Source: Jannaschia pagri (GTDB lineage Bacteria > Pseudomonadota > Alphaproteobacteria > Rhodobacterales > Rhodobacteraceae). Taken from it: 64,000 bases of DNA. The DNA is taken from the NCBI RefSeq assembly GCF_019655435.1, contig NZ_BPFH01000003.1, positions 62,001-126,000 of the forward strand. Direction: 5' to 3'. The notes beneath the pieces are model-generated. The model was given only the letters and a program-made list of their open reading frames with translations, was not told the origin of the DNA and did not search any database. This document shows positions 24,139 to 30,474 of this stretch, in pieces (position 1 is the first letter of the stretch; every line of letters starts with the position of its first letter). A program made the position numbers and the translations under genes.

Positions 24139-24169
24139 TGTGATCACGCTCCGTACAGGTGTGATCACA
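24139..24169. promoter_or_regulatory. Tandem palindromic operator upstream of sdhC
   Basis: Two 10-bp palindromes TGTGATCAC(G/A) begin at 24139 and 24160, exactly 21 bp apart (two helical turns), with 11 bp between them. The same pair with identical spacing occurs upstream of sucC (30444-30474). The site lies between divergent sdhC and the DUF3140 gene, about 120 bp from the sdhC ATG. The regulator is not identified. Confidence 0.75.
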
Positions 24170-24225
24170 AGGAACCGGATTTTTGGTCCGACCGTTGGAA
24201 GGGATCACCGAGACAGGAGGATTCG

Positions 24226-24564
24226 ATGTCGGACAAGTCGCGAGACCAGATTTGGGACGAATGGAAAGACCTTGTAAATATGGCCCCACAGGAGTTGTCA
24301 GACTGGTTGGACACCGATGAGAGCCAGTCCGTCGGCGCCGACAGCGGCGACGGCGAAAGCAAAGGACATAAGTCCGGCCGCCGCATCGTGGACGTCAAGC
24401 GAACCAAGAAGGACGATCTGTCTGACGACGATTGGGATCACATGGCCCGCGTGATCGGCTATATCAAACGCCACCTGTCACAGGGTGGCCCAGACGACGA
24501 CGTGGAGACCTCGGCCTGGCGCTACAGCCTGATGAACTGGGGACATGACCCGCTGAAGGACTGA
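24226..24564 (+). CDS. DUF3140 family protein
   Basis: A 112-aa, very hydrophilic and acidic protein: I-W-D-E-W-K-D-L-V-N-M-A-P-Q-E-L-S-D-W-L near the N-terminus, then K-S-G-R-R-I-V-D-V and a C-terminal D-W-D-H-M-A-R-V-I-G-Y-I-K-R-H-L. This pattern matches DUF3140, whose members are sometimes suggested to be DNA-binding; function is not established. The ATG follows AGGAGG. It is divergent from sdhC and may share its operator region. Confidence 0.86.
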   Translation: MSDKSRDQIWDEWKDLVNMAPQELSDWLDTDESQSVGADSGDGESKGHKSGRRIVDVKRTKKDDLSDDDWDHMARVIGYIKRHLSQGGPDDDVETSAWRYSLMNWGHDPLKD

Positions 24565-24579
24565 CCTATCTGCCAGCCG

Positions 24580-25140
24580 ATGGACGGTATGGACCGGATA
24601 GAAGTCACCTCGGAGGCCGCGCTTTGGGCCTGGCTTGGAGCGCACCACGGGCGGGCCGACGGCGTGCTGTTGGTGACCTGGAAGGCCACCCACAGGGACA
24701 AATACCTATCGCGGGACGCGGTGCTTGACGCGTTGATCGCCCATGGTTGGATCGACGGGCGGCGGTACAAGCTGGACGCCGACCGGACGATGCAGTTGAT
24801 CTCGCCCCGCCGGGAGCAAACTTGGGCCAAGACCTATAAGGACCGGGCCGCGCGGTTGGAGGCGGAGGGACGGATGCATCCGGCGGGCCGCGCCGCGGTG
24901 GCTGCGGGCAAGGCAAGTGGCCTGTGGGACGCCATGGCAGATGTGGATGCCTTACAGGTGCCGGACGACCTACGCGCCGCCCTCGGGTCGGGTGCGGGGT
25001 GGTTCGACGGCGCTGCCCCGTCTTACCGGCGGAATGTGCTACGCTGGATCGCCCAGGCGAAGACCGCACCAACCCGGACAAAACGGATCGATACCGTCGC
25101 CGCCCATGCCCAGCGCGGAGAAAAGGTCCCGCACTACTGA
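24580..25140 (+). CDS. YdeI/OmpD-associated family protein
   Basis: The 186-aa protein shows the YdeI-type core: A-L-W-A-W-L near the N-terminus, L-V-T-W-K, a central H-G-W-I-D-G-R-R-Y-K-L-D, P-R-R-E-Q-T-W-A-K and the late A-P-S-Y-R-R-N-V-L-R-W-I. Family members are linked to bacteriocin or peptide-antibiotic tolerance in enterics, but the biochemistry is unclear. An ATG a few codons in (MDRIEV, at 24589) is also possible. It lies 15 bp after DUF3140 and overlaps the convergent DUF4344 gene by 7 bp. Confidence 0.84.
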   Translation: MDGMDRIEVTSEAALWAWLGAHHGRADGVLLVTWKATHRDKYLSRDAVLDALIAHGWIDGRRYKLDADRTMQLISPRREQTWAKTYKDRAARLEAEGRMHPAGRAAVAAGKASGLWDAMADVDALQVPDDLRAALGSGAGWFDGAAPSYRRNVLRWIAQAKTAPTRTKRIDTVAAHAQRGEKVPHY

Positions 25141-25820
25141 TCCCGGGCGCGGCGGCGGAGGGTCGTCACCATCTCATGGCAGAACACGATCCGCTCATCG
25201 AAATGATAATAAAAGGCGTTGTCCTCGCCACAGGCTTCGGTTTGCACGGGGATGGGCCGGGGCAAGGCAATGGTCCGATTTACCCGGGCAATGTCCTTGC
25301 CGAGCAGGCGCAGGGCTTTGCCCAAACGGGCGGGGCGCAAGCTGTCGGTCGGCTCGGACGGGGCGATCCTATCCAGGACCGGGCCCCAGGCCGCCGTGAC
25401 TGAGGCGGCGCGCTCCACGCAGGGCCGCCGCTCATCCGGGCGCAGGCCCATGGCCAGGGCGAGGGGGCGCCGCACCTCGGGGTTCTGCCCATAGTAGAGA
25501 CAGATGGCATAGGCCAACCGTTGGGGCGTCGGCATATACTCGGCCCAAGGGTCAAATAACGCACGCGCTGCATCGGCCCGATAAACGGCGACCATATCCT
25601 GAACCATGGCCGTCATCTCGTCCTCGCCGTGTAAACGGTTGGCCAGGACCAAGGCGAAGGTATCCGCCGCCGTTTCCTCCGGGCCGAAAAGCGGGACCTC
25701 ATGCTGGTCGATCACCGCATGGGCCAACTCATGGTACAGGGTCATGCGCAGGTTATTGAGGACGAAGTCGGCCCGCACCGGCAGGGCAAGCACGACAAAC
25801 AGAAGGATAAGGCGGATCAT
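25134..25820 (-). CDS. DUF4344 metallopeptidase-like secreted protein
   Basis: The 228-aa protein has a signal peptide (cleavage after V-R-A near residue 17) and a zinc-peptidase motif Y-H-E-L-A-H-A-V-I-D (HExxH) early in the mature part, followed by G-P-E-E-T-A-A-D-T-F-A where the third zinc ligand is expected. Four cysteines occur in the C-terminal half. This is the DUF4344 arrangement. Likely periplasmic; substrate unknown. It starts 39 bp after the mesaconyl-CoA hydratase gene on the same strand and may be co-transcribed. Confidence 0.84.
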   Translation of the reverse strand: MIRLILLFVVLALPVRADFVLNNLRMTLYHELAHAVIDQHEVPLFGPEETAADTFALVLANRLHGEDEMTAMVQDMVAVYRADAARALFDPWAEYMPTPQRLAYAICLYYGQNPEVRRPLALAMGLRPDERRPCVERAASVTAAWGPVLDRIAPSEPTDSLRPARLGKALRLLGKDIARVNRTIALPRPIPVQTEACGEDNAFYYHFDERIVFCHEMVTTLRRRARDQ

Positions 25821-25859
25821 ACGCGATGAAGGCCCGCCTTCGCCCCCTGGGGCAAGCCC

Positions 25860-28796: not shown

Positions 28797-29126
28797 ATGA
28801 CAAAAACGCAAAAGTTGAACACTGCACTGATTGCGCTGACCTCCTTCGCGGCACTCGTGCTGACCTTGCCCGCACAGGCACAAGCCGCCAATTGCGGCCC
28901 CCGGGGCATCGTGGTCGAACGGCTGTCCTCCGATTTTGGTGAGACCCGTCGTGGCATTGGTCTGGCCCCCCAGAACCGCGTGGTGGAGGTCTTTGCCTCG
29001 GACGATAATGGAACCTGGACGGTCACGGTCACACGCCCCGATGGGGTCACATGCCTGGTGGCGTCTGGCCAATCTTGGGAGGATCGGATGGACGATCTGA
29101 GCCACTTGGCGGACGTCGATACCTGA
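28797..29126 (+). CDS. Small secreted two-cysteine protein
   Basis: The 109-aa protein has a signal peptide (cleavage after A-Q-A-A near 30), then A-N-C-G-P-R-G-I-V-V-E-R-L and a C-terminal V-T-C-L-V-A-S-G-Q-S-W. With exactly two cysteines one disulfide is likely. The ATG at 28797 has AAAGGAA upstream. Divergent from mcl2, upstream of mdh. The overall style (short periplasmic protein, two Cys) matches the proteins in the suc and sdh operons. Family unknown to me. Confidence 0.72.
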   Translation: MTKTQKLNTALIALTSFAALVLTLPAQAQAANCGPRGIVVERLSSDFGETRRGIGLAPQNRVVEVFASDDNGTWTVTVTRPDGVTCLVASGQSWEDRMDDLSHLADVDT

Positions 29127-29302
29127 GACCGGTGGCTGGCGAATCCTCGGCGTGTACCTTGGCGGCCGTGCATCCGAAGGCCTGATTTCGGGCAAAATCC
29201 ACCAGGTTTAGCGCTGTCATCCCCTGTCTGTCCCCTTGCGCGCCCCCTGTCTCCGGGGGTAGCCACCCCCCGGACCTTGAACGGACAGACCGGAGACATC
29301 AC

Positions 29303-30265
29303 ATGGCCCGACCCAAGATCGCCCTCATCGGCGCAGGACAAATCGGCGGCACGCTCGCGCACCTGGCCGCGATCAAGGAACTGGGGGACGTCGTCCTCTT
29401 CGACATCACCGACGGCGTGCCCCAGGGCAAGGCGCTGGACATCGCTGAGTCCGGCCCGGTCGAAGGTTTCGACGTCTCGCTGAAGGGCACAGGCGACTAT
29501 GCCGACATCGCAGGCGCCGACGTCTGCATCGTCACCGCCGGTGTGCCGCGCAAGCCGGGCATGTCCCGCGACGACCTGCTGGGCATCAACCTCAAGGTCA
29601 TGAAGGCCGTGGGCGAAGGCATCCGCGACAATGCCCCCGACGCTTTTGTCATCTGTATCACCAACCCGCTCGACGCGATGGTTTGGGCCCTGCGTGAATT
29701 CAGCGGCCTGCCCCACGAGAAAGTCGTCGGCATGGCCGGCGTTCTCGACAGCGCCCGCTTCCGCCACTTCCTGGCAGAGGAATTCAACGTCTCCATGCGC
29801 GACGTGACGGCCTTTGTGCTGGGCGGCCACGGCGACACGATGGTCCCATTGGTGCGCTATTCCACCGTGGGCGGCATCCCCCTGCCCGACCTGGTCGACA
29901 TGGGCTGGACCAGCCAGGAAAGCATGGACGCCATCGTTCAACGCACCCGTGACGGTGGCGCGGAGATCGTGGGCCTGCTCAAGACCGGCTCCGCCTTCTA
30001 TGCGCCCGCTACCAGCGCCATTGAGATGGCCGAAGCCTACCTCAAGGATCAAAAGCGCCTGCTGCCCGCCGCCGCCTATGTGGACGGCGCCCTGGGCCTG
30101 AACGGCATGTACGTCGGTGTGCCGACCATCATTGGTGCGGGCGGGATCGAGCGGATCGTCGACATCAAGCTGAACCGCGACGAGCAGGCCATGTTCGACA
30201 AATCCGTTGAGGCCGTGAACGGCCTGGTCGAGGCCTGCAAGGGCATCGACAGCACGCTGGCCTAA
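29303..30265 (+). CDS. mdh: Malate dehydrogenase
   Basis: The 320-aa NAD-dependent malate dehydrogenase of the LDH-like group has a Rossmann G-A-G-Q-I-G-G-T-L at residue 10, substrate arginine in [20 protein letters not shown], and the catalytic histidine in G-G-H-G-D-T-M-V-P. Oxidises malate to oxaloacetate. ATG preceded by GGAGACATCAC. A strong terminator follows (30289-30320), so it is separate from sucC. Confidence 0.97.
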
Positions 30266-30288
30266 GGCCCGTCAGATCGCAAACACCG

Positions 30289-30320
30289 GGGGCGCCCTGC
30301 AGGGGGCGCCCCATTTCTTT
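30289..30320 (+). terminator. Terminator of mdh
   Basis: A 9-bp stem GGGGCGCCC / GGGCGCCCC with a 6-nt loop, followed by ATTTCTTT, begins 24 bp after the mdh stop. Confidence 0.8.
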
Positions 30321-30443
30321 GCCGGGCCCGGATCCTGGAGGGTGTCAATTGCCCTTGTCCTTTTGCCCATCACACTACGTTTACAAAGTTGTGGATCGGT
30401 GATTCGTCTCGCGCTCCCCTGATCGAGTCGACCTGAATCGTTT

Positions 30444-30474
30444 TGTGATCACACCTTCGGGGACTGTGATCACA
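30444..30474. promoter_or_regulatory. Tandem palindromic operator upstream of sucC
   Basis: Two perfect TGTGATCACA palindromes start at 30444 and 30465, 21 bp apart with an 11-bp spacer, ending 114 bp before the sucC ATG. The arrangement is the same as at the sdh promoter (24139-24169), although the spacers differ in sequence, which argues for selection on the boxes. The binding protein is unknown. Confidence 0.78.

Follow-up and report, generated by a model that had tools for sequence, protein, structure and literature searches.

Tandem AkgR-type palindromes at a fixed spacing upstream of sdhC and sucC in Jannaschia pagri and its relatives

The 64-kb stretch of Jannaschia pagri DNA analysed here (contig NZ_BPFH01000003.1, positions 62,001 to 126,000; hereafter the window) carries two pairs of 10-bp palindromes with the core GTGATCAC, one upstream of sdhC and one upstream of sucC, two genes of the tricarboxylic acid (TCA) cycle. 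With a probability of about 0.88 the pairs are operators of the GntR-type regulator AkgR encoded in the same window (positions 44739–45386), which would activate sdhC and sucC from pairs of dimers bound on the same face of the helix. The sites themselves, their spacing and position, their conservation, their co-inheritance with AkgR and a phased A/T stretch that follows them were observed directly in the sequences and are described first.

The sdhC-side pair (24139–24169) has the form TGTGATCACG-N11-TGTGATCACA, with the promoter-proximal palindrome at 24139–24148 and the promoter-distal one at 24160–24169. The sucC-side pair (30444–30474) has the form TGTGATCACA-N11-TGTGATCACA, with the distal palindrome at 30444–30453 and the proximal one at 30465–30474. 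No strand is assigned to any of the four AkgR-type palindromes, and in one of them (site 24139) the outer base is G, not A. The distance from pair to start codon is 119 bp for sdhC (ATG at 24019, minus strand) and 114 bp for sucC (ATG at 30589). A preliminary description of the window had placed the two pairs at these positions with a 21-bp period and at 114–120 bp from the start codons, which reading of the sequence confirms; its statement that the window holds no third copy also stands, as no further pair was found in the 64 kb at up to 3 mismatches (shuffles matching, 0/100). Searching the whole 3.9-Mb genome for two GTGATCAC cores separated by 0 to 30 nucleotides returned these two places only, both with N13 between the cores, and the reversed control pattern of the pair gave no match in the whole genome. 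When one mismatch was allowed at N13, a third place appeared (C1:115355-115383), within a predicted coding region. The window shuffles and the whole-genome search together show that the pair does not recur elsewhere at random frequency. The single palindrome TGTGATCACA is present in 36 genomic copies, 26 of which lie inside coding sequence as predicted by a rough gene caller that had been trained on genes of the window. Single sites are therefore mostly background, the pair is the signal, and a wider single-site regulon is not claimed.

The pair is conserved across the family of the window. It was searched for in a first sample of 60 relatives, comprising 36 genomes of the window's own family and 24 of other families of the same class. 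When up to one mismatch is allowed, 31 of the 60 relatives have the 21-bp pair (30 of them exact by count of rows); all 31 are among the 36 own-family genomes, and none of the 24 genomes from the other families has it. An order-wide sample comprised 292 genomes, all rows of which belong to the same family as the window. The exact 21-bp pair is present in 282 of them, with most rows two per genome, and the reversed control pattern had no match in this sample. Among the other ten genomes, five carry a pair with 20-bp spacing and one, G280, a pair at sucC with one core mismatch (three mismatches to the 10-mers). Sixteen genomes lacking the exact N13 pair were searched for the N12 spacing, which corresponds to a 20-bp period, and 6 of them have it. 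As a side observation, ten genomes (G091, G105, G141, G152, G207, G223, G226, G233, G300 and G301), belonging to two genera and to more than one species, contain three exact pairs, not two.

The position of the pair is conserved as well, as it stands directly upstream of sdhC and/or sucC in 33 of the 35 fetched family stretches. A start was found for 61 upstream regions (30 of sdhC and 31 of sucC) from the 35 family loci and from genomes G149 and G082. With up to 4 mismatches in 20 positions and any period from 18 to 24 allowed, 58 of these regions contain the pair, 51 with period 21 and 7 with period 20. The 58 aligned pairs, pre-selected by the limit of 4 mismatches, are 98–100% conserved at every core position of GTGATCAC and have T/A as outer bases in 71–83%. 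The 11-bp spacers, 51 in number, all differ from one another. The spacing is kept and the spacer sequence is not, which is what two proteins adjacent on one helix face would keep.

The proposed binder of the four palindromes is the protein encoded at 44739–45386 on the minus strand, which contains GntR (PF00392, 1.7e-14) and FCD (PF07729, 6.5e-20) domains according to Pfam. Its nearest solved relative by ortholog profile is McbR of E. coli (PDB 4p9f, E 8.5e-24), a likeness of sequence profile; the targets and the function of McbR differ from those of AkgR. A structure predicted from 25 orthologs is of low confidence (mean predicted local distance difference test score, pLDDT, 65.7). NCBIfam holds no AkgR model, and no listed NCBIfam model exceeded its cut-off for this protein. 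In Rhodobacter (Cereibacter) sphaeroides the GntR protein RSP_0981 was reportedly identified by Imam et al. in 2015 as AkgR, a direct activator of TCA genes. The AkgR motif and the predicted targets in R. sphaeroides are taken from published papers. In the available text of one of them the palindrome GTGATCAC is identified among the binding sites of AkgR, a GntR activator of R. sphaeroides (PMC6365646), and in that of another RSP_0981 is the predicted regulator of the suc (RSP_0967-6), sdh (RSP_0974-6) and kgd (RSP_0965-62) genes (PMC4344238). The preliminary description had not gone as far as this: both the regulator and the palindrome, as far as the accessible parts of these papers tell, were already published for R. 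sphaeroides.

The link between AkgR and the protein of the window is provided by genome G149. A reaction-centre L chain used as a query against the genomes of the relatives is 100% identical in G149, and this query matches PDB reaction-centre L chains over its own full length. The matched PDB chains are presumably those of R. sphaeroides, and G149 was recognised as this species from the L chain together with gene position. When 60 kb around suc and sdh of G149 were compared with the 14 GntR-type proteins of the window's genome, a single place was matched by any of them. The protein encoded there shares 78% identity with the 44739 protein, and its gene is found ~2 kb beyond sdhA, on the far side from suc. 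The order of the locus tags (lpd RSP_0962, sdh RSP_0974-6, RSP_0981) means that AkgR is expected exactly where this match sits. Both the sdhC and the sucC operons of G149 carry 21-bp pairs. The protein encoded at 44739–45386 is thus probably the ortholog of AkgR, as judged from sequence comparison, and from this ortholog AkgR itself would be of FCD type. Comparison of the G149 protein with named genomes gave at least 80 loci; the best among the matches listed is Cereibacter ovatus (95%), and C. sphaeroides is not among the matches listed. Among these loci 11 sdhC or sucC starts had enough sequence upstream to be checked, and all 11 are preceded by the pair with a period of 21 and no more than one mismatch to the 10-mers.

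The pair and the regulator are inherited together. In the first sample 31 of the 36 family genomes encode an ortholog of the 44739 protein (at least 66% identity); in the order-wide sample 287 of the 292 genomes have a match to it at E<=1e-60. The two samples share 12 genomes and give a joint set of 316, in which 306 have both pair and ortholog, nine have neither (G011, G017, G023, G027, G033, G164, G195, G276 and G281), one has the pair only (G082) and none has the ortholog only. In this count the six N12 genomes and G280 were scored as carrying the pair, and G023, with a one-mismatch pair, as lacking it. Fisher's test with kinship ignored gives p 1.3e-16 for pair against ortholog; in the order sample alone, with G280 scored as lacking the pair, p is 8.4e-8. 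Because the genomes are related, a sucC tree of 41 rows was built. The pair changes three times on this tree and the regulator changes each time as well: G033, G195, G027, G023, G164 and G276 are early branches without the pair, and the pair is lost in G281 and in G011 with G017, inside the window's own genus group. In G011 and G017 sucC is kept at 91–92% identity and none of GTGATC, TGATCA and GATCAC was found in the 260 bp upstream of it; the pair is absent from the sucC regions of four genomes without the regulator.

A dedicated TCA-cycle regulator bound two helical turns apart, as the preliminary description had suggested, is supported by the conserved pair before sdhC and sucC, and the expected conservation upstream of sdh and suc in relatives is borne out across the family. 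The GntR at 44739, named there as a candidate, gains support from the near-perfect co-occurrence, from the sucC tree and from the probable orthology with AkgR.

Several observations weigh against this assignment. The three changes on the tree mean that the genome count overstates independence; in addition, a pair anywhere in the genome was counted among the 316, its place being checked only for the fetched stretches, and G027, one of the nine genomes with neither element, is just 82% complete. Co-occurrence was computed for the 44739-type GntR alone among the GntR proteins. G082 has both pairs in place (L143, L144, L247 and L248) and no ortholog was found in it at E<=1e-60, with 10 of 25 candidates scored, nor in two more 20-kb stretches; this may be accounted for by an assembly gap, a search gap or a replaced regulator. 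The identification of G149 has an indirect basis, the L chain and gene position. No exact palindrome site stands in front of the GntR gene 44739–45386 itself. Three of the 61 upstream regions lack the pair, all of sdhC (L080, L082 and L092, the last of which has one site). Finally, the two fetched stretches without the pair upstream of sdhC or sucC contain exact pairs in G003 (C1:2250947) and G019 (C28:309059) with no sdh or suc match within the fetched 20 kb; by eye, read in frame, these would encode a Val-Ile-Thr repeat and were therefore treated as chance.

It could be that the pairs are bound by another regulator, one of the ten other GntR proteins of the genome that score over the cut-off or an unrelated factor, and that the 44739 GntR merely travels with the TCA cluster. 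In all, eleven GntR matches of the genome pass this cut-off, relatives often have the 44739-type gene near lpd, so that linkage could mimic co-inheritance, and the pairs of G082 stand without a detected ortholog. We consider this explanation unlikely: in G001, G007, G009 and G108 the regulator gene lies 80 to >200 kb from the pairs and still co-occurs with them, the loss of both elements in the close relatives G011 and G017 took place around a well-conserved sucC, and the motif GTGATCAC was published, in the part of the paper available, for the R. sphaeroides ortholog (PMC6365646). Even less probable is that the sdh-locus pair serves the divergent DUF3140 gene (24226–24564, plus strand), the link to sdhC being incidental. 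The pair lies between the two genes, ~57 bp upstream of the DUF3140 gene, and 14 of the 35 fetched family loci have a DUF3140 gene close to sdhC. In the rest there is no match, yet the pair is kept upstream of sdhC in loci without it, G149 included, and a twin pair stands at sucC. The DUF3140 gene may be co-regulated with sdhC.

Two further readings of the palindrome can be given hardly any weight. The letters TGTGA and TCACA coincide with the half-sites of CRP, which would suggest a protein of the CRP/FNR type. CRP sites have 6 bp between the half-sites (TGTGA-N6-TCACA), whereas here, both in the window and in the relatives' 58 aligned pairs, the half-sites adjoin with no spacer; as the N6 spacer is absent, the CRP/FNR operator was rejected. 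R. sphaeroides is moreover predicted, in the available text, to have no CRP analogue (PMC4344238). Each palindrome also contains GATC, and a methylation switch might be supposed to act there instead of a regulator. GATC alone would hold neither the outer GTG/CAC at 98–100% in the 58 pairs nor the 20/21-bp period, and the pair is co-inherited with a DNA-binding protein; on these grounds a GATC methylation site was rejected too. The operator of the LacI-type regulator CceR, given as [A/G/T]GTT N6-8 AAC[A/C/T] in the accessible part of PMC4344238, does not fit either, since TGTGATCACA contains neither GTT nor AAC; this rejection concerns the palindromes, CceR sites elsewhere in the promoters not having been sought.

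The DNA between the pair and the start codon has a regular structure of its own. In the first set of 58 aligned pairs, A/T-rich positions recur downstream of the pair. A second set of 60 pairs was taken from part of the order-sample matches; 58 of them have a start (29 sdhC and 29 sucC; L267 and L268 were dropped). The mean A/T profile of the second set from +1 to +60 downstream of the pair has its top period at 10.0 bp (9.75 for sucC and 10.25 for sdhC), with peaks at about +1–3, +9–13, +20–23, +29–32 and +39–42 reaching 0.98 and troughs down to 0.14. The power of this periodicity is 0.99, compared with at most 0.19 over 2000 rotations, and on the upstream side of the pair it is 0.08, which is still above its own rotations. 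The A/T content is higher in blocks than in troughs in 58/58 rows of the second set and 57/58 of the first; the block limits were drawn with both sets already seen, and the period test on the second set is therefore the cleaner one. Periodicity is higher in the stretch than in the flank on either side, and in 44 of 58 rows it is above the 95th percentile of 4822 random windows matched for A/T. Most blocks consist mainly of A in some rows and mainly of T in others, so that A and T are interchangeable; the sucC block at +1–3 is mostly A in 27 of 29 rows. In the window the phased stretch runs from the pair towards sdhC at 24079–24138 (minus strand; A/T 0.70 in blocks and 0.37 in troughs) and towards sucC at 30475–30534 (plus strand; 0.70 and 0.26). 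The block near +31 is missing by eye from the sdh stretch.

A sigma-70 scan of positions 24000–30620 found no promoter, and the -35 and -10 positions were therefore inferred from the aligned promoters. The consensus of 29 sucC promoters contains a -35-like GTTT at about +46 to +50 and a -10-like GGCAT or GCCAT at about +68 to +72; in the window the -10-like element would by position be GTGCCA (30540–30545, plus strand). On a promoter so placed, the A/T blocks would fall near -42, -52, -62, -72 and -82 and the two AkgR dimers would be centred near -88 and -109. The block positions are ones at which alpha subunits of RNA polymerase can bind. Upstream promoter (UP) elements and the phased A-tracts that precede strong promoters have A/T minor-groove blocks about one turn apart before the -35 element. 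Blocks about 10–11 bp apart, as in a UP element or an array of alpha-subunit C-terminal domains, are found here upstream of the presumed -35 place. The difference from UP elements is that here five blocks span the whole gap to a fixed tandem activator site and are in register across genera.

The mechanism that we propose goes beyond these observations: binding as dimers, their cooperativity, activation in J. pagri, the place of the promoter and what the A/T blocks do are all inferred. One AkgR dimer would bind each 10-bp palindrome, with the centres of the two dimers two helical turns (20 or 21 bp) from each other along one face of the DNA; the neighbouring dimers probably touch and are probably cooperative. 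From upstream of the core promoter AkgR would switch on transcription of sdhC and sucC, and probably of the TCA genes that follow each of them, in response to a carbon or TCA-cycle signal. The A/T blocks, repeated in 10-bp steps from the pair to the -35 position, are probably contacted in the minor groove by the alpha subunits of RNA polymerase; alternatively, they may make bending easier and so bring AkgR to the polymerase. A stronger and rather doubtful version is that the TCA promoters of the family form one rigid device, in which an AkgR tetramer and five A/T blocks stand in exact register with the polymerase, the shape of the DNA and not its base sequence is selected, and AkgR reaches the polymerase either because the DNA wraps or via an array of alpha subunits. 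If this were true, a module of activator and curved DNA would have been kept over much of the history of the family.

The preliminary description had spoken of sdhCDAB and sucCDAB operons downstream of the pairs. The sdh and suc genes are indeed supported by Pfam; the clusters are not compact, and other open reading frames lie between the genes. The sdh cluster begins with sdhC (Sdh_cyt; 23636–24019, minus strand) and contains sdhD (23254–23625), sdhA (21423–23234) and an sdhB-like iron-sulphur protein gene (18498–19277), which a sulfotransferase-like open reading frame separates from sdhA. Beyond sucC (succinyl-CoA synthetase beta; 30589–31782, plus strand) follow sucD (33723–34610), sucA (36095–39058), odhB (39062–40570) and lpd (42463–43857). 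The sucC/sucD gap holds open reading frames without a Pfam match, the sucD/sucA gap an alpha/beta hydrolase and the odhB/lpd gap a MAPEG protein. A Pfam-supported mdh is also present in the window, and a terminator-like hairpin after it (30289–30312, plus strand) would fit a promoter of its own for sucC; it is a pattern match only, and the scanned region has 4 terminator-like sites where 4.4 are expected in shuffles.

Two other elements were noted. A lone perfect palindrome at L043 (G000:C2:456506), 52 bp before a small open reading frame and 298 bp before a divergent one resembling pyruvate kinase by eye, is a possible further target of AkgR. A CTGCGACC-like element, perhaps a promoter part or the site of another regulator, recurs about 35–45 bp past the sdhC pair in leaders of the window's genus (e.g. 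L069-L084; at about 24080–24110 in the window).

As far as sequence comparison goes, the arrangement described here presumably represents, in a different genus, the AkgR regulon of R. sphaeroides. The two species have the 21-bp pairs at sucC and sdhC in common. The palindrome GTGATCAC, a motif taken from the available text of PMC6365646, also occurs at the target promoters of the window. Of the suc, sdh and kgd genes predicted as targets in R. sphaeroides, which are in common, those led by sdhC and sucC have the pairs before them in the window. The differences lie in the gene order: the GntR gene is past lpd in the window and past sdh in R. sphaeroides, and the window, unlike R. sphaeroides, has extra genes between its TCA genes, whereas sucC-sucD-sucA-odhB is compact in G149. 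Outside this lineage, the same paper proposes in its accessible part that the GntR protein PS417_07240 of Pseudomonas simiae, the regulator of a deoxyribonate cluster and 32% identical to AkgR, binds GTGATCAC (PMC6365646). One palindrome is described there, at -47 to -40 from a start codon, and the pathway and lineage differ from those of the window. Both the tandem arrangement and the A/T phasing may be new to the literature: no description of either was found in the accessible text of the literature searched, a search that did not include the Imam 2015 study itself.

A GTGATCAC pair at 20 or 21 bp before sdhC or sucC accompanies AkgR and would serve as a diagnostic of it. A/T phasing present at two different promoters and tolerant of exchange between A and T would make shape-based activation directly testable by short insertions. 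One regulator and one fixed operator geometry would be linked to the central TCA operons in most members of a bacterial family of ecological importance.

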